64,000 bases of DNA from Microcoleus sp. AS-A8 (GTDB lineage: Bacteria > Cyanobacteriota > Cyanobacteriia > Cyanobacteriales > Coleofasciculaceae). Within the stretch, counting starts at the first letter, position 1. Each line of letters opens with the position of its first letter. Location of the stretch: NCBI GenBank assembly GCA_039962225.1, contig JAMPKV010000008.1:62001-126000 (forward strand). Reading direction: 5' to 3'. The translations under genes were made by a program, and so were the position numbers. Positions 26,812 to 62,461 of this stretch are shown piece by piece. The notes beneath the pieces are model-generated. The model had not been told where the DNA came from, searched no databases, and saw nothing but the letters and a program-made list of their open reading frames with translations.

Positions 26812-28299
26812 TTATGAGGCTCCGCCAATTTGAATATCGCGCACCCGCACCGGCACGCAGGCATGGGTCATCTGAGCTAGTTGCATGGGTTCACCCTTAC
26901 CACAAATATTGGTGCCACATTGCTTCCATTCGGAAGCTGGCCCGATCGCATCAACGCTATTCCAAAAGTCGGTTGTCATGGCCTGGTAAGTGACATCCTT
27001 TAACATGCCCACCACTTTGCCTTTCTCCACCTTCCAGAAAGCATCCCCGCCAAATTGGAAGTTACGCCGCTGCTGGTCAATAGAAAAGCTGCCAACGCCA
27101 TCAATTAAAATCCCGTCCTCAGTATCTGCAATCATCTCTTGGAGAGTGGCAGTGTGGCTACCCCCATCTAGCCCCGGTTCCAAGCCTAAATTCGGAATCC
27201 GTACCATTGGCAAACTCGACCAACTATCCGCATAGGCACTACCATTGCTGCTGGGGCGACCTAGTCGATAGGCGGTTTCCCGGTCAGTGAGGTAGTCAAC
27301 TAAAAGACCATCCTTGACAATAGGCCAACTTTGTGCAGGCACACCTTCGTCGTCATAGCCCATCGTACCGCGTCCCCCCGGTTGAGTGCGATCAGCCCGG
27401 AAATTCACGCAAGGTGCTGCATACTGGAGCTTGCCTAATTTATCGGTAGTGGCGAAGCTGGTTCCCGCAAAGTTAGATTCGTAGCCGTATACCCGATCCA
27501 GCTCTGTGGGGTGTCCGACAGATTCGTGGATGGTGAGCCACAGATTGGTGGGTTTGAGGATCAGGGTGGTGCGAATACCAGAGGGGCCTTTGGGCGCGTA
27601 TACTTTTTCAATCGCTTCTTCGGCAACTCGTTCAACCTGACTCAAAAGGTCTGCGGGATTGATATGCTCGTAACCAATGTTTAGGGGGGGACGTTCGTAG
27701 TTGCGCTCTTGAGCATCACCGTTTGCGATCGCCGTACACCCAAATCCTGGATAGCTGCGGTAGATGGTTTGCTGAATCAGGGAACCTTCTGTAGAGGCAA
27801 AGGTTTTATCCTCGCGGGTGAAACGCAAGAAAGAGTAAGCTTTTTTAATGCCGTGCTCGCTATAACGCAATAACTGTTCATTGAGGCGCAACAACAACTC
27901 AGCTTTTTCGGTAATCGGTACGCTAAACGGGTCAATCTCAATAGGAGTAATGTAAGTATCGCGGTAGGCTTTGACAGGAGCTAATTGCACCCGTGTTTGC
28001 TGAGAGAGGCGGCTACCTTTAGCAATTTCTACAGCTAAAGCGACAATTCGTTCTACTTCTGCTGGGGTTTTATAGGGACTAGCGGCGAATCCCCAAGCAC
28101 CATCTAACAGAACCCGCACCCCAAAGCCAGAACTGACATTATCGGAAAGTTGACTGAGGGAGCGATCGCGTGCGAAAAGATTCTGACTGCGGTAGGTGCA
28201 AAAACGGACATCCCCGTACTCGCATCCAGCACGAGCGATCGCATCAATGGCTAATGTAGCAAGGTCAGTCGTGGTAATCGGTGCGGGAGCTTGTACCAT
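26812..28299 (-). CDS. tldD: TldD family zinc metallopeptidase
   Basis: A 495-residue catalytic subunit of the TldD/TldE peptidase. The zinc motif HESVGH is visible in LTIHESVGHPTELDR at about residue 257, and the family's Gly-rich segment follows (QPGGRGTMGYDDEGVPAQ). It is the longer, catalytic member; pmbA lies downstream on the same strand. The first 20 residues (VQAPAPITTTDLATLA) and about 60 bases before the ATG are echoed by a decayed copy at 31440-31545, 3.2 kb away. A perfect palindrome at 28381 lies 82 bases upstream of the start. Confidence 0.94.
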   Translation of the reverse strand: MVQAPAPITTTDLATLAIDAIARAGCEYGDVRFCTYRSQNLFARDRSLSQLSDNVSSGFGVRVLLDGAWGFAASPYKTPAEVERIVALAVEIAKGSRLSQQTRVQLAPVKAYRDTYITPIEIDPFSVPITEKAELLLRLNEQLLRYSEHGIKKAYSFLRFTREDKTFASTEGSLIQQTIYRSYPGFGCTAIANGDAQERNYERPPLNIGYEHINPADLLSQVERVAEEAIEKVYAPKGPSGIRTTLILKPTNLWLTIHESVGHPTELDRVYGYESNFAGTSFATTDKLGKLQYAAPCVNFRADRTQPGGRGTMGYDDEGVPAQSWPIVKDGLLVDYLTDRETAYRLGRPSSNGSAYADSWSSLPMVRIPNLGLEPGLDGGSHTATLQEMIADTEDGILIDGVGSFSIDQQRRNFQFGGDAFWKVEKGKVVGMLKDVTYQAMTTDFWNSVDAIGPASEWKQCGTNICGKGEPMQLAQMTHACVPVRVRDIQIGGAS

Positions 28300-28380
28300 A
28301 GGAAGTCTTTGGCGGAGTAATAACGTATTGTAACGACTTCACGGCTAGCTTTGCATCGTACATCCTGCAATTAAACGCCA

Positions 28381-28413
28381 AGATCCCCGACTTCTTCAAG
28401 AAGTCGGGGATCT
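28381..28413. repeat. Perfect 16-bp-stem palindrome
   Basis: AGATCCCCGACTTCTT is followed after one base by its exact reverse complement. Hairpins of this GATCCCCGACTTCTT type are common interspersed elements in filamentous cyanobacteria. It lies between tldD and the NB-ARC remnant and could terminate transcripts coming from the right. Confidence 0.85.
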
Positions 28414-28433
28414 GAACAGCCAGTATTCGCACC

Positions 28434-28971
28434 TTATTCATTGCTATGGGAATATTGAGTTTTTACATATTGTTTCACCACAGGTACGAGACTAAAAACC
28501 ATTTGATTGTCCCCTATCTGTTTTTCAATCAATGAGCGTCGTTCTAGAGATTGAAGCGAACTGAATAACTCGGAGGGGGATAATGGTATTTCTTCTATCA
28601 ATTTGGTAGTGGAAACAGACTCTACTTGGTTACTAAGGCAGGACATCACCTCTTTTTCTACAGCCGACAACCGCTGAAACTGCTGATTTAATATAGCTTT
28701 TAAATCCTCGCACAATAACAGGTTTTTATATTTTAAATACTCAGATGCTCTACCATTAAATAAGTCTTGAATCAGTGTAGCAACTATCTTTAACCATAAA
28801 GGGTTGCCTCGGTAGGCATTAATCAAGTCTTGCCATGAATCCTCTTCAACTAAACCTTTGTCTCTGAGGATATTCCTAATAGTGTTACCAGGCGACAGCG
28901 TTCCTCTACAATATCCTACTTTTTCCGCCCTATTTAGATAATTAAAGATTTGAAGAAGTTTCAGTAAATCC
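28434..28971 (-). pseudogene. Remnant of an NB-ARC (STAND) ATPase gene
   Basis: The frame is open from 28971 down to the stop at 28434, but only a TTG at 28826 lies where a start is called, inside a conserved helix. Reading from about residue 1 of the open frame gives NYLNRAEKVG..., then SWQDLINAYRGNPLWLKIVA (the GxP-type motif of the NB-ARC domain), QQFQRLSAVEKEVMSCL and a winged-helix-like end (LERRSLIEKQIGDNQMVFSLVPVV). That is the C-terminal part of the ATPase of cyanobacterial NB-ARC/WD40 or TPR proteins. The Walker A and B region and all repeats are missing. It is very likely non-functional. Confidence 0.8.
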
Positions 28972-29065
28972 TACTTTTTCCGCCTAGAAAAAACAAAAAT
29001 TGTACCCGATCATATTTATATACACTGATTTCAGCTATTGCGGAAGTTTCTACGGATATAAAAAA

Positions 29066-29569
29066 ATGACAGGACAAATAGTATCGACAGCTCAAGCCAA
29101 TTTAAAGATGGCTCTCTGGCAAGTAGATGCTGATTCAATGAGCAGCAGTGAGCTGTATGCATGGTTAGTTGACAGTGGCTTACCCCATGAGGTAACTATC
29201 AGACTCCATGAGCTTGCTAGCTATACAAAAAAATCTGGCAACAAAGTTCTAGCTGTCGGAAAAATCATTCTGCTCAAAATCATTGAGTTTATCAAGGCAC
29301 ATCCTAATTTAGCTATGGGTGTTGCTCTAGGCGCTGCTGTAGGACTCTTGGTGAATTCTGTACCAGTTCTAGGGTCAGTGTTAGCACCATTGGCAACAGT
29401 ATTGGGGATAACTATTGGTGCGATCGCTGGACACAGACTGGATAAAGGCAAAGAAGTCAATGAAGGAATAATTGGAGTTGCCCAAGACATTATTGAAATT
29501 GCCAGGGATTTTTTCAAATTATTTATTGATATTTTCAATGCTATCTTCCGCAACGTTATTACTGCCTAA
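29066..29569 (+). CDS. Small membrane protein with Gly/Ala-rich hairpin, function unknown
   Basis: A 167-residue protein from the ATG at 29066 (a TTG at 29000 would add 22 residues). The N-terminal half is soluble and helical. A long hydrophobic stretch, about residues 78-120 (LAMGVALGAAVGLLV, then VLAPLATVLGITIGAIAG), forms a two-helix hairpin with small residues in the glycine-zipper style. A C-terminal amphipathic helix follows (ARDFFKLFIDIFNAIF). I do not recognise the family. It is followed after 36 bases by a second small Gly/Ala-rich membrane protein on the same strand, so the two are probably an operon. It lies in a patch that looks acquired. Confidence 0.75.
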   Translation: MTGQIVSTAQANLKMALWQVDADSMSSSELYAWLVDSGLPHEVTIRLHELASYTKKSGNKVLAVGKIILLKIIEFIKAHPNLAMGVALGAAVGLLVNSVPVLGSVLAPLATVLGITIGAIAGHRLDKGKEVNEGIIGVAQDIIEIARDFFKLFIDIFNAIFRNVITA

Positions 29570-29605
29570 AGAAAAATTAAATCAACTTAAATCAGGAATT
29601 CTGAT

Positions 29606-30136
29606 ATGTTTGGAAATAAAACCCTAACTAAAGAGCAACTTCTTAAAGCACTTGAGGAACTGGAAAAAAATCCCCAGGATAGGCTAGGAATTTTAGCTGA
29701 TATTGGAGTTGGTGTTGTAGGTGCTGCTGGTGCTGGCTATGCTGCTTCTGTTTTGGGAGCTAGTGCTATATTCTTTGGGCTGATTCCAGTTGCCGCTCCC
29801 GTAGCAGTAGTTGCTGGCGGTGCTGCCTTAGGTGGACTGGCTCTCGTAGGAATCAAGAAGATGCTGTTTGATGGCACTTATGACGAAGGAAAAAGAGATC
29901 AAATACGAATTCAAATAGAGGAAAACCTAAGGGATATTGAAGCTAAAGAAAAGGCATCTAATTTAGGGGAAAATGATAAGAACCAGTTTTACACTTTCTT
30001 GAAAGAACCAGTAAAGTTTGATCTAATCAGTCCAGAGGATGCTCAAGGTTTAATAAACGCTGTAGAAAGTGGCAAAATGTCATTAAAGGAAGCGTATCAT
30101 TTAGTAGAAGATGTAATTAATTCAGCAAAACCCTAA
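29606..30136 (+). CDS. Second small membrane protein with Gly/Ala-rich hairpin, function unknown
   Basis: A 176-residue protein. A charged N-terminus (KTLTKEQLLKALEELEK) is followed by a hydrophobic hairpin rich in glycine and alanine (about residues 32-83, GVGVVGAAGAGYAASVLGA and VAAPVAVVAGGAALGGLALV), then a soluble Lys/Glu-rich helical C-terminus ending in a segment that resembles a short EF-hand-like or helix-turn-helix pair (LISPEDAQGLINAVESGKMS). A GGA ribosome site lies 9-11 bases upstream of the ATG. The gene shares architecture with its upstream neighbour but not clear sequence identity. A perfect hairpin with a T-run at 30326 may end the operon. Function is unknown; pore formation or membrane anchoring are possibilities only. 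Confidence 0.75.
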   Translation: MFGNKTLTKEQLLKALEELEKNPQDRLGILADIGVGVVGAAGAGYAASVLGASAIFFGLIPVAAPVAVVAGGAALGGLALVGIKKMLFDGTYDEGKRDQIRIQIEENLRDIEAKEKASNLGENDKNQFYTFLKEPVKFDLISPEDAQGLINAVESGKMSLKEAYHLVEDVINSAKP

Positions 30137-30325
30137 CTTCCTTCTGACTTCACGACTTGAAATGCTAGATATTGGCTATGCCGTTTGCTCCTAGTGATGC
30201 TGATATCTACTTCAGATGAGGTGAAGAAATACCAACTCTTCAGAGTAAAGCCCGAATGCTTCAGAAAGAACCCCAAAATACTCCTTGGTGGCAAATGCGG
30301 GTATTTTAGTAATCTTTTAGGTTTG
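30137..30325. other. Intergenic region after the membrane-protein pair
   Basis: No gene is supported; frames on both strands lack family-like sequence. The region continues into a hairpin with T-run at 30326-30368. Confidence 0.4.
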
Positions 30326-30368
30326 AATGCGATCGCACTTCGTTTAGGTAGGTGCGATCGCATTTTTT
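30326..30368 (+). terminator. HIP1-containing terminator hairpin
   Basis: AATGCGATCGCAC and GTGCGATCGCATT form a perfect 13-bp stem with a 13-base loop, followed by TTTTTT. The stem includes a HIP1 core in each arm. It would stop transcription of the two membrane-protein genes on the plus strand. Confidence 0.75.
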
Positions 30369-30467
30369 GTGTCTGGATTAGTGCAGAGTGCTTCCTTCTG
30401 CGAATGCAGGTACGATTTGCGCCATTCAAATCTCAAATGAGAGAGGCATGAGGTGCGATTGCCTCTC

Positions 30468-31272
30468 CTACACCTCTGGCTCAACCCCTAACGCCCGTAA
30501 CTGCTCCGCCAACCGCTCAGCCCGTTGTTGAGCTAACTCCTTCTCCTGCCGCTCTTGTTCGAGACGTTCCTCCGCCGTCAGCAGCAGATTCCCCCCTATA
30601 TCCCACCAGCGCAGCCAAGGCCATTCCTGATTCTGATACTTACCCTGCCAAATGCCCAATTCTGTTCCTAGAGGTTCAATGGGATAATGACCTCGCTCAT
30701 TCGCTGGCATGAGCTGATAGCGCCCGTTTACTAACTGATAAACCTCCACTCGTGCCTTTTTGACTTCATAGATGCCATAGTAAGGGATACGAATTGCTCG
30801 TTCGTAAACCCAAAACTTACCTTTCTTGGGAGTTTTGTCTCGTTCTTCCACACCCTCCCCAGAAACGAATTCCAAAGCAATTAGCGGCGCGACAAATTCC
30901 TTCCACAAGACATAGGAACGGCGAATTTCTCCATGGAGGTTAGGTGGCACATCCGGTACATAGAACCAATCCGGTGCCTCTGCTCCTCTTTCCGCTGGCT
31001 CTGGCGGTTCTGTCATGCGCCAGTAAATGCCGCAATCTCGACCAATGCAATACTGCCCATCTGGGTGGAGTTGCTGCAAAATTGGTGTAATACAGTCCGT
31101 GAGGAGGTCGCCTTCTGGGGGTTCGGAGAAAATTTTTGCCTGTGGCACGCTCCGCGAACACAAACTTACCATCCGAGTCGGGAAGCTGGGTATGATCTGG
31201 CAGGGAAGCAGGCAAACCCGCTGTGGGAGACAAATCGGTTGACGGGTCTAAAGATTGGGTGGTCTGGCTCAT
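30468..31272 (-). pseudogene. Uma2/DUF820-type restriction-fold protein, frameshifted
   Basis: The C-terminal 225 residues (DGQYCIGRDCGIYWRM, APDWFYVPDVPP, LIALEFVSGEG, KFWVYE, YGIYEV) match the cyanobacterial Uma2 family with a PD-(D/E)XK-like fold. The N-terminus MSQTTQSLDPSTDLS... starts at 31272 in another frame. The break falls at 31138-31160, where GTGTTCGCGGAGCGTGCC, a sequence resembling the interspersed GTTCGC-GTAGCGTGCC repeats of cyanobacteria, separates DGKFV from KIFSEPPEG. An inserted short repeat could have shifted the frame. A C-terminal coiled coil (EERLEQERQEKELAQQRAE) is typical of these proteins. Translation from an internal GTG is possible but would lack the N-terminus. 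Confidence 0.8.
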
Positions 31273-31882
31273 ATCGCTTGAGGATGTCAGTATCCTGAAG
31301 GTTATACCCATGATTGCTCCAAAGCCGGAGCTGAGGTTATCTCAAGGTTAGCCCAAGGAGCGATCGCCCACTGTAGAGTACTTCGTCGTGCTTGCCGAAT
31401 AGACGCAGTCCTTGGGGCGATAGGCTCAAAGCGTCTTGCCCAAAGGGCGATCGCAAATGGGAACAAGTCAGTCGTAATAATCGGTGCGGAGGCTTCTACT
31501 CTGGTAAGTCTTTTCTTTGCAAGGTGGATATTGTATCTTAACTACTTCACCTGTTTTCCTGCGTTATTGACAACTTTAGCGTAGTGCGGCAGGTTTCAGG
31601 TCTCCAGCACAAGAGCTACTTTCCTATGCTCAAGAGCGTCCTCAACAAAGACCTAAGGCTCAGGCGTCGCAGTAGCCAATATCTTTTTGGGCAGAGAGCT
31701 TCACTTGAATTGGTAAAAACTGAGACAATTACCAAAGGGTTCTCCAGCAAGATTTGAAATGTATTAGCTGAGATTGCCTATGAGTAACTTTGACGTTCTA
31801 CAAGACTATCCACAGAAGCAAGATTTTGGCACAATTGATCCATTAACTTTCCTCTTATGACCTTTTCTAAAACTTGGGATTA
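31273..31882. other. Intergenic region with a decayed tldD 5' fragment
   Basis: This 610-base region has no intact gene. Positions 31440-31545 resemble the start and upstream leader of tldD at 28200-28355 (see the separate entry). The rest shows HIP1 sites but no coding potential I can support. Confidence 0.5.
31440..31545 (-). pseudogene. Decayed duplicate of the tldD 5' end
   Basis: Plus-strand blocks AAGTCAGTCGT, ATAATCGGTGCGG, AAGTCTTT, ATTGTA and ACTTCAC occur in the same order and spacing as at the tldD start (28260-28355). Read on the minus strand the fragment gives SAPIITTDL...FAIA against PAPITTTDLATLAIDA in TldD. The start codon is lost and homology fades on both sides. Confidence 0.75.
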
Positions 31883-32458
31883 ATGAAACCAACTAATCAA
31901 CCCATACGCTTGCAACTTAACCACTATCGCTCCTATATTGCGATATCCTATGATGACATAGAAGTGGGTTTTTGCACTCCTGAATTTGCCGACCGAATTG
32001 TTGAAACGTTTAATGAGTATGAGCGGCTACACGAAGATAATGAAACTTTAAACAAAGCCTTACAAATGGCTTGCAGGGACTTGGTCAAACAATCAGGTGG
32101 CAACGCTTATCATGTTACTCGGCGCATCAAACAATACATAGAAAAAGCTAAACGCCCTGAACATGGTACACGAGCCATTGCCTTCTTACTACGCGAAAGA
32201 CAACGGGAACTTGACCTCAGCAACAGGGAATTTGTGCGCTTCTGCTATTCTTACAAACTGGCTCCTCAAGAACTGAAAGATATTTTTAGTGGCAAAGACA
32301 TTACAGATAACCAACTCAAAGTTTTATCGCGAATTCTCGGAAAATCGGCTGAGGAGTTAACCGAAGTGCGAGATGGTTTTAGCGATAGTGAACTCAATCG
32401 CTTAGCCCGAATTCTGGGTACCTCGAATGAAGAATTATCGGATTTATTCAAAGGATAA
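31883..32458 (+). CDS. Small protein with two C-terminal helical repeats, function unknown
   Basis: A 191-residue soluble protein from the ATG at 31883 (a TTG at 31874 is also in frame). The N-terminus (IRLQLNHYRSYIAISYDD) looks like strands. The middle (LNKALQMACRDLVKQSG) is helical. The C-terminal half is Arg/Lys-rich and contains two units of the pattern L(S/A)RILG(K/T)S(A/N)EEL, at about residues 147-163 and 173-190, which look like helix-turn-helix halves. A DNA-binding role is possible but not shown. It converges on the four-GAF gene. Confidence 0.75.
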   Translation: MKPTNQPIRLQLNHYRSYIAISYDDIEVGFCTPEFADRIVETFNEYERLHEDNETLNKALQMACRDLVKQSGGNAYHVTRRIKQYIEKAKRPEHGTRAIAFLLRERQRELDLSNREFVRFCYSYKLAPQELKDIFSGKDITDNQLKVLSRILGKSAEELTEVRDGFSDSELNRLARILGTSNEELSDLFKG

Positions 32459-32504
32459 ACTATCCTAAACTCAATTAGGATATTTGACCCGATGAGGCTT
32501 TCAC

Positions 32505-35399
32505 TTATTTTTGTGTGCTTCTAGACCGATTAGTAATTCCTGGCAGAATCACACCCACTTGATTGTTAAAAATCTCCATATCCTTTTGATCCTTTTCCTC
32601 AAAACTCAATTTGAAGTAATCGGGTACGTTAGGCCAGTCAGACGAATCATATTCGGGAAAATCACCAGGCTTCCGTTTGTTAATGAGTTGAGTGACACCC
32701 AGTAACTCGCCATCCGAACCCACAACTGGCATACAGAGTAGGCTACAAGTACGATAATGGGTTCTCTCGTCCGTTTGTCGAGCCATGTAAGAGTCAGGAT
32801 GGTCATATAAGTCAAAGGCAATATTCACCGCCTGACCCGTTTGAGCAACCTTGCCCACAAAGCCTTCTCCCATCGGGACTCGTGTTTCCAGCCAAGAACC
32901 ATCGCCTTGGCGGATAGTTGTCCACAATTCATTAGTTTGGTGATCCAACAACCAAAGGGAACTGCGATCGGCATTCGTAAGTTTTTTCGCAGCTTGCATC
33001 ACTTTTTGAATCAAGTCTTCTGGATGGCCACTACTTTGGCTCACGAAGCTAATCGCTTGATAGAGCGGATCGATCGCTTGTCGTTGCTCCTGAATCGCTC
33101 TAATTTCTCGATGGAAAGATTGGAACGCTTGTAGGATTGGCAGTATCGAGGCCGTACACTGCTGTAGCTTCTCTGCATCCGCTTTTGTAAAGCCCCTAGT
33201 ATCAATTCGTTCGGCTAACGGAATACTGGGGTCAAGAGATAGGAATTTGTTAAATGACCGAACAATGGCGATCACCTTTCCTCGTTGATCCAAAACAGGA
33301 AATAGTAACAAATTATGCAAGCTACTTATACTTTTCGAGGTGATGCCTCTATGGATTAAGACATCGTTCAACTTGCTAGGTTTACTACTGGCTTGTACAG
33401 CTTTTGAGTCAACAATTTTATTGGCGATCCCTAGATTCGCCGAAATCCGAATCTCTGAGGCATTACTCGCTTCTTCCTCAAAAATTAACGACCAAAATCC
33501 AGTTTCTTCGGCATCCAACATGAAAATCGTTGTATGCTCAGCTTCCAATAACTTGTTAATCGTCAGACTAATAAAACTCAGCAAATAGTAAAGTGCATTG
33601 TAGAGAGCTTCATCACTCTGGTCTAGTATCGAATTACTCAGTACAGCTAGAGCATTATAAATCGCTTTTTGCGGTTCAACTTGCGCTAGCTGCTTCAGGG
33701 TTTCATGGGTTCTCACAAATTGGAGTACCACTCCAACGCGCTCATTAAAGACTTGCATCGACTGTTGGTCGTTTTTGTCAAAGCTAGTCTTAAAGAAATC
33801 GGGAACTGTCGGCCATTCTTCTTTGTTATATTCACCGAAGTCACCGGGTTTGCGTTTGTTGACCAGTTGGGTGACACCCAGCAACTCGCCATCAGGACTC
33901 ACAACGGGCATACACAGTAAGCTACAAGTGCGATAACGAGTTTGCTCGTCGATTTTTTTCGCATTCTCGGCGCTAGGGTGGTTGTATAAATCGAACGGAA
34001 TAATCATGGGTTCGCGAGCTTGAGCCACTTGACCGGCGAAACCCACCCCAACCGGACACCGGACTTCCCCTTTACCCGGAAGTTCGGTCCACAAGTCACC
34101 CCGGTCATGATCAATCAACCACAGCGTACTGCGATCAGCATTCAGCAGTTTTTTCGCTGTATTCATCACCCGTTGCAGGATGGCTTTGGTATCCAAATTA
34201 ATTTGGTCAAGAGAGCGGGTGGCTTCGATCAGGGCTGCCGTTGCCCGTAGCTTCTTGGTTACTCTATAACAAGACTGGCAGCTTTCTAAAATCCGGCGAA
34301 TCGGAACCACACATTTCGCCAATCGTTCTAGGTCTAATTTTGTAAAGCCCTGTGGCTTAGTGGGCTGCTCACTGCTCTCCTGCGACTTCTCCGGCTGCAA
34401 CTTGTTCAGCAGTTGAATAACAGCAACGACCTCTTTGTGTTCATCCAAGATCGGCAGGGCTAAAATATTTTGAGTTTTGTAATGGTATTTCTTGTCATAT
34501 TCTTTGACTAAAGCGGCGCGTGGGTCTTCATAGACATTGTTAGCAATATGAATAACTTTCCTAGTCTGGGCGACTTGACCTGCAATCCCTTCCCCGACTC
34601 GCACCTGAATATCGAGAAATTCTCCCTCTTCATTCTCCGCCACTAGCGACCACAATTCTGTCTTGTCGTCATTGAGTAAATAGATTGTGGCTCGGTCTGC
34701 ACCTAATAAACTTCCTACTTTTGCCGTAACTTCTCGTAATACTTGGTAGAGAGCCTGAGCTGAACCTTCATCCTCGGCTTCATTGTCGGCCTGAGACAAA
34801 ATTTCTACCTGAGAAACTAGCAGTTTTCTTTCTAATTCAGCCAGAGTTCTCAAAAATTCTGTGTCAGTTGGTTCAACCTCAGATTTTTGATTTTTCAAGG
34901 CATGTTCAATCCAAGCCTCGCTAAATATGGCCTCATAAACCCGATTGTGAGGCTTTAACTTGCCTTGTTGCTTGACGACTAAACCCAATAGTCGCAATTC
35001 ATTTTGTTCGGGTGTGTCATTGGCGACCACAACCTCTTGCCGCAAAATACGCTGATAGAGCTGCAAGAGCCTAACACTGCGCTGATTTCGTCTCAGGAGG
35101 CGATCGCGGATAGTTCGCAAATGATCGAGTTCCGGCAGGGTCTCCCATTTTTCAATGAGCTGTTGGCGCACCAAGCGGTCAAACCATTCCGCTTCCTCAC
35201 CGACCGGAGGTGAATCCTCCGCTTCGACAATCAGTTGACATAGCTTTTGGGTGAGTAAGGGCTGTCCCCCCGTCCATTTCAACACCTCTGTTAGTAATTT
35301 TTTGTAATTTTGGGATTTTTCTTTTAATCCCTGAGCAATGAGTAATCCGCTCTTGATAACTTCGCTATGACGTAAGGATTCAGATGTATTTGTGATCAT
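32505..35399 (-). CDS. Four-GAF sensor protein with STAND-type N-terminal module, no output domain
   Basis: A 964-residue protein. Residues about 30-170 (VLKWTGGQPLLTQKLC, HLRTIRDRLLRRNQRS, LRLLGLVVKQQGKLKPHNRVYEAIF) match the C-terminal helical/winged-helix part of cyanobacterial AAA-like STAND proteins; the nucleotide-binding part with Walker A is absent. Four GAF domains follow at about 210-350, 403-550, 600-745 and 793-950. GAF2 and GAF4 are close paralogues (ADRS(T/S)LWL, YRTCSLLCMPVV, LGVTQL(V/I)NKRKPGDF). No chromophore-binding cysteine in a phytochrome-like context, and no kinase or cyclase domain, is evident. A signalling scaffold is likely; ligand and partner are unknown. Confidence 0.9.
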   Translation of the reverse strand: MITNTSESLRHSEVIKSGLLIAQGLKEKSQNYKKLLTEVLKWTGGQPLLTQKLCQLIVEAEDSPPVGEEAEWFDRLVRQQLIEKWETLPELDHLRTIRDRLLRRNQRSVRLLQLYQRILRQEVVVANDTPEQNELRLLGLVVKQQGKLKPHNRVYEAIFSEAWIEHALKNQKSEVEPTDTEFLRTLAELERKLLVSQVEILSQADNEAEDEGSAQALYQVLREVTAKVGSLLGADRATIYLLNDDKTELWSLVAENEEGEFLDIQVRVGEGIAGQVAQTRKVIHIANNVYEDPRAALVKEYDKKYHYKTQNILALPILDEHKEVVAVIQLLNKLQPEKSQESSEQPTKPQGFTKLDLERLAKCVVPIRRILESCQSCYRVTKKLRATAALIEATRSLDQINLDTKAILQRVMNTAKKLLNADRSTLWLIDHDRGDLWTELPGKGEVRCPVGVGFAGQVAQAREPMIIPFDLYNHPSAENAKKIDEQTRYRTCSLLCMPVVSPDGELLGVTQLVNKRKPGDFGEYNKEEWPTVPDFFKTSFDKNDQQSMQVFNERVGVVLQFVRTHETLKQLAQVEPQKAIYNALAVLSNSILDQSDEALYNALYYLLSFISLTINKLLEAEHTTIFMLDAEETGFWSLIFEEEASNASEIRISANLGIANKIVDSKAVQASSKPSKLNDVLIHRGITSKSISSLHNLLLFPVLDQRGKVIAIVRSFNKFLSLDPSIPLAERIDTRGFTKADAEKLQQCTASILPILQAFQSFHREIRAIQEQRQAIDPLYQAISFVSQSSGHPEDLIQKVMQAAKKLTNADRSSLWLLDHQTNELWTTIRQGDGSWLETRVPMGEGFVGKVAQTGQAVNIAFDLYDHPDSYMARQTDERTHYRTCSLLCMPVVGSDGELLGVTQLINKRKPGDFPEYDSSDWPNVPDYFKLSFEEKDQKDMEIFNNQVGVILPGITNRSRSTQK

Positions 35400-36038: not shown

Positions 36039-37304
36039 ATGCAAAACTCGAAAACCGTATCCAAACAGAAACATATTGTTCTAACTTCTCATCCAGGTCG
36101 TTTAGCGTCAAAGCCGTTAAGCGTGCACTGGGGAGAAAGTGACCCCAGCAAACGAGGCGCAATTATTGGCACATTGACCAACCCAGCTCACCGAAATGTG
36201 ATCGGGACACACTCCGGTTCTTATTCGGTCTATCGGGCTTTAGCGGTCGCCAGTGGCGCTCTCCAAGCCAGCCACCGCGCCGATCTGACCAATACGTCTC
36301 CAGTGGTTGCGATCGGGCCTCATCCCAGTTGGGCTGATGCCAGCAAAATCGTCGCCCTCGATCCCTTTGGCGCGATGGTGGGTGAAGCTTACGCCGAGCT
36401 GTACCAGCAGGGATACGACATTCGACCGACGATCGCAATCACTCAGGCTCATATTAATATGCCAGAGTTACAGGATGCGATCGCCAAAGGCCGTTTGCTC
36501 ATCGATAATCGAATTGTCAAAAGTGGTGGCAGTTTAGTCGTAACGAAGATCGCCATTGACCCTGTATGGTATCTGCCGGGATTGGCTAAGCGCCTCAAAG
36601 TTGGGGAAAGTGACTTACGTCGTGCCCTGTTTCAACAAACCGGTGGGATGTATCCGGAATTAGTCACCCGCCCCGATTTACAAGTCTTCTTACCACCGAT
36701 TGGCGGCATCACGGTTTACCTGATTGGCGATGTAGCGGCGATTACCGACCCCAACCGTAAGCTAGCTGTGCGGGTACATGATGAATGCAACGGCTCAGAT
36801 GTGTTTGGTTCCGATATTTGCACCTGCCGCCCTTATCTGGTGCATGGTTTGGAGGTCTGTGTTCAGACAGCACAAGAGGGCGGTGCTGGTATCTTAGTTT
36901 ACTTCCGTAAGGAAGGTCGAGCCTTGGGTGAGGTCACGAAATTCCTAGTCTACAATGCCCGTAAGCGTCAAGAAGGAGGCGATCGCGCCGATGCCTACTT
37001 CAGTCGCACAGAGTGCGTTGCAGGCGTGCAGGATATGCGGTTTCAAGAACTGATGCCTGATGTGCTGCATTGGCTGGGCATCACGCAAATTGACCGCTTT
37101 GTCTCCATGAGCGATATGAAATACAACGCGATCGTCAATTCTGGCATTAAGATTATCAATCGCATTGCCATTCCAGACGAGTTGATTCCGGCTGATGCAC
37201 AGGTGGAAATCGCTGCCAAGCAAGCGGCGGGTTACTACACAGAGGGACTTGCACCCGATGCGGTCACTCTGACTCAAATTAAAGGACGCAACTTAGTCAG
37301 TTAG
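36039..37304 (+). CDS. GTP cyclohydrolase II-like protein of the URC1 type
   Basis: About 421 residues from the ATG at 36039; an upstream GTG at 35811 gives a 76-residue extension without recognisable sequence. The protein is related to GTP cyclohydrolase II (RibA): zinc-ligand cysteines occur as DECNGSDVFGSDICTC (about residues 248-264), with downstream VYFRKEGRALGEVTKF. It has a long N-terminal domain (HIVLTSHPGRLASKPLSVHWG) absent from RibA, which is the mark of the URC1-type group. Its neighbours, a DUF1688 gene and upp on the same strand, are the set described for the URC uracil-degradation pathway of fungi and some bacteria. RibA in riboflavin synthesis is the alternative but less likely. 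Confidence 0.85.
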   Translation: MQNSKTVSKQKHIVLTSHPGRLASKPLSVHWGESDPSKRGAIIGTLTNPAHRNVIGTHSGSYSVYRALAVASGALQASHRADLTNTSPVVAIGPHPSWADASKIVALDPFGAMVGEAYAELYQQGYDIRPTIAITQAHINMPELQDAIAKGRLLIDNRIVKSGGSLVVTKIAIDPVWYLPGLAKRLKVGESDLRRALFQQTGGMYPELVTRPDLQVFLPPIGGITVYLIGDVAAITDPNRKLAVRVHDECNGSDVFGSDICTCRPYLVHGLEVCVQTAQEGGAGILVYFRKEGRALGEVTKFLVYNARKRQEGGDRADAYFSRTECVAGVQDMRFQELMPDVLHWLGITQIDRFVSMSDMKYNAIVNSGIKIINRIAIPDELIPADAQVEIAAKQAAGYYTEGLAPDAVTLTQIKGRNLVS

Positions 37305-61861: not shown

Positions 61862-62461
61862 GACGCTCTATCTGCCAATTCAGCGTATAGGTTCAGGCAA
61901 CAGGGAAGGAGGAGAGGTTCCCGACTTGGAGTGAGCCACCAAGGCCGATGGGACAAACATCAGTACCGACTATCCCTGCCGCCTTAAGGCTTGGATACCA
62001 TGTGTTTAACCATAAGCTGTCCCGTAGATCAACTTATGGGTAAAGTCGCAGAATATCCAAGTTTTGCAGAACTAGTTATTATGCGGATGGCGAGACTCGA
62101 ACTCGCAAGGCAAAGCCACACGCCCCTCAAACGTGCGCGTATACCAATTCCGCCACATCCGCGTATTGCTGATTATAGCAAAAAGAAAGAAATTTTACTG
62201 AAAATATTTTTTTCCTGATTAGTACACCACTAAAGGAGTTAAAGAACATCAATGTAGGCGTTCGGCTGACCTCCCGCTTGGGGATGGATGAATGCTTCGT
62301 GAAAAAAAGTGAATATCCCAGCGTCAGGGTCTACGGGTAAACGACCTGACTCACTCATGAGGCTTCGCAACCCTAGCCACAACACAACTTTTCACAAAAA
62401 GTACAAATAGGGTGCGCGATCGCCTCTATCCTATCTGATACGGGTATAGCAGCGCTGTTCT
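61862..62461. other. Intergenic region gcvH to accC
   Basis: It contains the tRNA-Leu gene at 62083-62162 (minus). Outside it, nothing coding is seen. The last 60 bases before accC hold TACAAAT-like sequence that could be a promoter -10. Confidence 0.5.
62083..62162 (-). tRNA. tRNA-Leu (anticodon GAG)
   Basis: On the minus strand the sequence folds as a class II tRNA. The acceptor arms are GCGGATG and CATCCGC, the anticodon stem CACGT/GCGTG holds the loop TTGAGGG (anticodon GAG), a short variable arm (GGC/GCC) follows, and the T stem GCGAG/CTCGC encloses TTCGAGT. No CCA is encoded. It decodes CUC/CUU leucine codons. Confidence 0.95.

Follow-up and report, generated by a model that had tools for sequence, protein, structure and literature searches.

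Decayed second start of tldD beyond a patch of accessory genes in a Microcoleus genome: a possible footprint of homology-anchored insertion

In the chromosome of the filamentous cyanobacterium Microcoleus sp. AS-A8, a small patch of accessory genes lies directly upstream of tldD, and the start of tldD recurs in decayed form on the far side of this patch, which raises the questions how the patch came to lie there and which of the two tldD starts is the original one. The locus was analysed in a window of 64,000 nucleotides (contig JAMPKV010000008.1, positions 62,001 to 126,000; all coordinates below count from the first letter of this window, and other genomes carry our working labels). Intact tldD occupies 26812-28299 on the minus strand and encodes a protein of 495 amino acids with PmbA/TldD domains (PF01523, PF19290, PF19289) and 96% amino acid identity to its counterpart in G001, a genome of the same genus. 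The patch contains the remnant of an NB-ARC gene, two genes for small predicted membrane proteins (TM168 and TM176) and a broken Uma2-family gene. On its far side, the scar follows, as we call the second tldD start, and then a gene for a protein of 190 amino acids.

The first ~60 codons of tldD together with ~47 bp of leader (28121-28346, minus strand) are repeated colinearly at 31319-31553. Because tldD is encoded on the minus strand, with its start codon at 28299, both copies represent 5' ends with their leaders; the two tldD-derived stretches flank the patch in direct orientation, with the intact gene on the left and the 5' fragment on the right. The working leader spans 28300-28346 on the minus strand, and the leader matches of the genome G006 extend to 28346 and those of G005 to 28355. 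The scar, on the minus strand as well, is composed of a coding part (31319-31502), which has lost its start codon, and a leader part (31503-31553), which is closest to the tldD leader of G004, a genome of the same family. The similarity to tldD ceases at 31319, and the likely start of the Uma2-family gene lies 47 bp away. Two blocks are well preserved, namely 28247-28310 versus 31450-31513 (73% over 64 bp, spacing 3203) and 28121-28169 versus 31319-31367 (76% over 49 bp, spacing 3198), and between them 29 of 79 aligned columns match tldD, which amounts to no clear similarity. A sequence-only reading of the locus had listed five blocks recurring in the same order at the tldD start and at 31440-31545; these blocks are present, and the match proved longer than claimed.

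Considering that frequent GCGATCGC octamers raise the background similarity in the window, a chance resemblance or convergent leaders might be suspected. This explanation is refuted by the local alignment score of 54 between the tldD start and the scar, compared to a mean of 21.1 (sd 2.6) and a maximum of 31 among 300 dinucleotide shuffles. Moreover, the similarity is colinear over 230 bp, the feature is also found in G001, and the scar aligns with the tldD start of G004 in its context. Scores of 54 or more were reached by 3 of 1892 random pairs of 700-bp stretches from the window; judging from their coordinates, two of these pairs lie at 10-14 kb and one lies in or beside the GAF gene with its repeated GAF domains. 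Among the matches listed for the present genome (40 of 55 candidates scored), the tldD start had no additional copy. A multi-copy repeat as source of the middle of the scar was ruled out, with only a 32-bp match elsewhere in the genome. Differences between scar and tldD were counted as 10, 5 and 12 at 33, 32 and 32 sites of codon positions 1, 2 and 3, and as a decay clock these counts were not decisive.

For comparison with the window, 18 tldD neighbourhoods were collected from relatives. One of them, from G001, contains both the patch and the scar, and the alignment of the present genome to G001 runs from 30460 to 34359 at 92% identity, bin by bin across the scar and the breakpoint. The event therefore predates the split of these two species. 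G004 has a single tldD start and no patch, and its DNA upstream of tldD is continuous into the 31464-32436 side of our locus: the alignment begins at the tldD start, crosses the intergenic stretch without a break and reaches into the 190-aa gene. Sequence positions put the start codon of tldD 376 bp away from the 190-aa gene in G004, versus 381 bp when the distance is taken from the scar in the present genome. The sequence-only reading had anticipated a relative without the patch in which tldD joins the 31546 side directly; G004 is such a relative, the only one among the 18 regions with the tldD/190-aa junction and no patch. Taken together, insertion of the patch beside tldD is supported. A Uma2-family gene also occurs in G004 (L051:922-1471; 65.9% identity over 551 columns), where it sits between the 190-aa and the GAF gene, and from this different placement we infer that Uma2 genes moved here more than once.

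The side of the locus that G004 joins directly to tldD begins with the 190-aa gene (31883-32458, plus strand), which has no family match, followed by a multi-GAF protein gene (32505-35399, minus strand), which adjoins the 190-aa gene in several relatives, and a gene of the GTP cyclohydrolase II family (36054-37304, plus strand, in a frame open from 35811). In eight of the 18 relative regions tldD faces the cyclohydrolase gene, at distances of ~0.1 kb (G008), 0.4 kb (G016, G011), 1.0 kb (G012), 4.5 kb (G007, G019), 7.0 kb (G015) and 8.9 kb (G018), compared to 7.5-7.8 kb in the present genome. Neither this arrangement nor the tldD/190-aa junction was seen in eight other regions, in some of which the contig ends. 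The 190-aa gene was compared across 24 loci, many with only ~1.5 kb of flank, and within these flanks a tldD match beside the gene was found only in G004 and in none of the 23 others carrying the gene or searched for it; in other relatives the gene sits elsewhere. Since tldD faces the cyclohydrolase gene in eight regions and the 23 other 190-aa loci lack a tldD match, the 31546 side is itself a newcomer next to tldD, and the interval between tldD and the cyclohydrolase gene takes up genes repeatedly. The most economical order, which is not proved, is that the patch arrived after the 190-aa and GAF genes. In a tree of the 190-aa gene, the grouping of G004 and G006 with this genus was weakly supported (83/91). 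The cyclohydrolase gene failed as a species tree for placing G004, as no true ortholog was found in G004 or G009 (distant match of 30-31% only). The stretch 31503-31760, comprising the scar leader and the intergenic DNA after it, is 94-98% identical to G001 in 50-bp bins, above the identity of today's tldD leader, and may contain a promoter of the 190-aa gene.

The insertion leaves two possible origins for the scar, which the leaders may help to distinguish. One is that, once the lineage had split from that of G004, the patch was plainly inserted and the 5' end of the resident tldD was partially duplicated anew along with it, and that today's leader diverged later beside the patch. This would produce the same anatomy of repeat, patch and scar as the alternative, in which the native 5' end became the scar and the patch brought today's leader with it. 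The leader sites speak against the fresh duplication: the scar leader matches that of G004 at 49 of 64 positions and that of today's tldD at 33 of 60 (Fisher's test, p = 0.014), and today's leader matches that of G004 at 32 of 60. Of the informative sites in the three-way comparison, 19 unite the scar with G004, 6 the scar with today's leader (sign test 19 versus 6, p = 0.015) and 5 today's leader with G004. Trees were built from 12 of the 18 tldD sequences and the two scars (G015, G018, G007, G020, G027 and G036 were dropped), and in the leader-only tree the scars grouped with G004 (87/94), whereas a clade of scar and today's leader was rejected by the approximately unbiased (AU) test (p = 0.011). 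Today's leader is not simply fast-evolving, because its identity to the outgroups G006 and G012 (35/60 for both) is no lower than that of the scar (31/60 and 32/61) or of G004 (27/60 and 29/61), which also argues against divergence after duplication. Between the present genome and G001, the scar leader is identical at 64 of 65 positions and today's leader at 53 of 60.

Several points weigh against a native scar and an imported leader. The leader evidence is short (~60 bp), and the sister relation of scar and today's tldD, as expected from a fresh duplication, was not significantly rejected with leader plus first coding block (AU p = 0.12) or with all 175 columns (p = 0.116). The coding part of the scar is slightly nearer to today's tldD (70/97) than to that of G004 (66/97), which likewise favours duplication of the resident gene, and in a tree of the first 357 nt, from which G020 and G027 were left out, today's tldD groups weakly with G004 (86/88). 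Both of these coding groupings imply that no foreign origin of the coding part of tldD is seen; the coding columns alone were uninformative on the grouping of the scar (AU p = 0.264 and 0.307). In addition, today's leader has the stretch AAAGACTT in common with the scar, and it could have arisen from a scar-like leader through a deletion by slippage. The G004 assembly is 67% complete and its contig of 3034 bp cuts tldD, and a donor carrying both patch and tldD was not found. On the sequences at hand, it is nevertheless more likely that the native 5' end of tldD stayed in place and became the scar, and that today's leader is the newcomer that arrived with the patch, than that the scar is a copy of today's end; this is a lean and not a proof, and a different origin of the leader is supported but not settled. 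A fresh duplication of the resident 5' end appears possible, at a clearly lower probability. From the earlier proposal of an insertion that duplicated one tldD end, the insertion thus stands with the empty site in G004, and the copying of today's end loses ground to the closer match between the scar leader and that of G004, with the reservation of the non-significant test on all columns.

The grouping of the leaders could also be explained without any import if an ancient tandem pair of tldD genes had flanked the patch and was resolved by reciprocal loss, so that G004 lost one copy together with the patch and the body of the other copy disappeared in this genus. Such a history would need the patch to have been present in the ancestor of G004, but TM176 has no match in this incomplete assembly, nor in the listed family members other than G000, G001 and G002. 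Furthermore, a tldD protein search in 37 genomes found no second full-length tldD at this similarity, the other matches being distant paralogs with at most 40% identity. We consider a tandem pair unlikely.

The best explanation of the locus, which we hold with moderate confidence, is a homology-anchored insertion of a donor segment that brought its own leader and left the native 5' end behind as a scar. In the ancestor of the genus, tldD would have been joined to the 190-aa gene, as it is in G004. The incoming segment would have carried the accessory patch beside a tldD start with the leader of another lineage, and homologous pairing within tldD would have anchored it, while the far end of the patch, on the Uma2 side, was fused to the interior of the old tldD near codon 60. 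Two routes could lead to this product, either homologous joining on one side combined with illegitimate joining on the other, or a single crossover of a circularised segment and subsequent loss of most of one copy. In either case, a working tldD with the incoming leader would have remained beside the patch, and the old 5' end with the native leader would have decayed beside the 190-aa gene. With age, the sequences at both junctions have diverged. The repeat, the scar shared with G001 and the empty site in G004 are observed; what we infer from them is the route of the crossover, the donor and the succession of steps.

A transposon-like insertion, with the repeat as target-site duplication or with the patch as a mobile element carrying its own recombinase, might be suggested by an interspersed palindrome that borders the patch on its left (28371-28420) and occurs in at least 22 other places in the genome (40 of 55 candidates scored). 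However, the repeat at tldD consists of ~230 bp of a gene's 5' end and is not a short target duplication, and no inverted repeat joining the ends of the patch was found in the repeat comparison of the window. No transposase or integrase domain was detected in the five open reading frames (ORFs) of the patch in the window (Pfam, E 0.01), and in the seven patch ORFs of G001 no recombinase domain of Pfam at E 0.1 or better passed the cut-off; a sub-threshold match to a TniB-type AAA domain (E 0.076) falls on the ATPase of the NB-ARC protein. The only Rfam match in the window is a tRNA at 62082-62162, so that Rfam gave neither a tRNA near the patch nor a structured RNA at the scar. This origin of the patch is very improbable.

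Comparable events have been described in other bacteria. In Streptococcus, Acinetobacter and Pseudomonas stutzeri, homology-facilitated illegitimate recombination (HFIR) anchors incoming DNA by a homologous end while the other end is joined illegitimately (PMC3240628). Our locus resembles HFIR as described there in having a homologous gene on one side and, near codon 60, a single arbitrary breakpoint, but HFIR is expected to delete recipient DNA, whereas here part of a gene is present twice and the event is known from its end product only. When one-sided integration was sought at lacZ of Escherichia coli, 56 of 60 clones had partial duplications of the anchor gene, of 109-950 bp in the 14 sequenced clones, and these duplications are explained by a single crossover of circular DNA (PMC3240628). 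The likeness to our locus is that the anchor gene is duplicated around the insert, with a scar of ~230 bp here; the difference is that laboratory conjugation with non-replicative plasmids was used there, whereas the present case is natural, old and decayed. For the displacement of effector-immunity modules of the type VI secretion system in Vibrio cholerae, the authors propose an HFIR-like process (PMC5361080); as in our locus, an incoming cassette is anchored by a conserved stretch and remnants of older genes are kept alongside, but the parts kept there are immunity genes under selection, whereas the 5' fragment of a housekeeping gene kept here has no visible use. Small, non-mobile variable segments between conserved genes were attributed to illegitimate recombination in PMC2884548. 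They resemble our patch in these properties and differ in that they vary at strain level in E. coli and others, whereas here the differences are seen among genera within a single cyanobacterial family. Events of this class are already known, and the locus is a clean natural example of one. A literature search turned up nothing on the tldD/patch locus among the papers listed, by which we do not claim its absence from print. The locus represents a natural, dated footprint of the entry of accessory genes into a cyanobacterial chromosome without a mobile element, and the scar, the empty site and a similar second case come together in one interval.

This second case is found in G018, where the same interval contains a gene for a 686-aa epimerase/gluconolactonase-type protein twice, around four minus-strand ORFs that encode a methyltransferase, a TerB-like protein, a haem-oxygenase-like protein and one protein without assignment; the patch is located between the tldD start and +8.9 kb (L044). 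The copy beside tldD, in the native position, has lost ~0.8 kb internally, and its leader matches that of G007 at 98 of 100 positions. The leader of the other copy, which is whole and lies on the far side, matches those of G019 (86/100) and G015 (84/100) better than that of the first copy (60/100), and a sister relation of the two copies was rejected (AU p = 0.00013). Against a parallel to the window, in 7 of the 14 full bins of 100 columns the two copies have bodies that are 100/100 identical, which leaves the leader and the ends as the main source of the signal; conversion between the copies or a duplication with swapped leader would explain G018 as well, and the broken copy is a whole gene with an internal deletion and not a 5' stub. 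If leaders truly differ in origin, gene capture would also exchange the promoter region of a conserved neighbour. A bolder extension, which we regard as rather doubtful, is that the interval is a recurrent capture site, in which cassettes enter with a donor copy of the neighbouring gene and its leader, give a housekeeping gene a new promoter and leave the native start as a scar, with the window and G018 as two independent cases. The cargo of the window would then be an undescribed conflict module, with an NB-ARC sensor divergent from a membrane-protein pair as possible membrane-active effectors.

The cargo itself has been partly lost in the present genome. The NB-ARC STAND NTPase remnant (28434-28826, minus strand) comprises only the C-terminal part and corresponds to residues 321-471 of a 471-aa protein of G001 (69.5% identity), in which the NB-ARC domain was detected with an E value of 7.4e-13. 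Likewise, the Uma2-family gene (30468-31272, minus strand; PF05685, 1.9e-19) has a broken frame here and a single open frame of 267 aa in G001, so that the NB-ARC remnant and the frameshifted Uma2 gene had both been named correctly from the sequence alone. An origin of the Uma2 part by copying within the genome was rejected, with no other DNA copy of it found. The patch of G001 is larger and contains the intact NB-ARC gene and the membrane-protein pair (L034:10116-12826), genes for an LRAT-domain protein, a TPR protein and a 139-aa protein, and the intact Uma2 gene. The LRAT, TPR and 139-aa genes (L034:12928-15950) are lost or reduced in the window; the C-terminal part of the LRAT-domain protein resembles that of TM176, the TPR protein has a glycine-rich N-terminal end and the 139-aa protein matches PD-Lambda-2_B of PADLOC (E 1.6e-19).

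TM168 (29066-29569) and TM176 (29606-30136), both on the plus strand, form a conserved gene pair. TM176 was found in 48 of 388 genomes of the order, and TM168 directly preceded it on the same strand at all 30 loci among the matches listed. These loci, taken with ~1.5 kb of flank, include the present genome and G001; 12 of them contain an NB-ARC relative, which is divergent from the pair in 12 of 12 cases. The cargo thus points to a conserved membrane-protein gene pair, with or without an NB-ARC gene, that has no accepted family in Pfam or NCBIfam at the levels used. In PADLOC, partial and weak matches were obtained for TM176 of G001 to LeoBC (E 1.2e-6 over 97 residues) and for the NB-ARC protein to Avs4 (1.6e-5). 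TM168-TM176 (29066-30136) and the NB-ARC gene are a candidate for an uncharacterised conflict module. In analogy to what is known of STAND proteins, an NB-ARC sensor acting with membrane effectors would be a reasonable guess. Where the NB-ARC remnant breaks off, an exact direct repeat of 17 bp is present (28913-28929 and 28968-28984), beside which G001 has ~0.5 kb more DNA, and this repeat is perhaps the footprint of a deletion.

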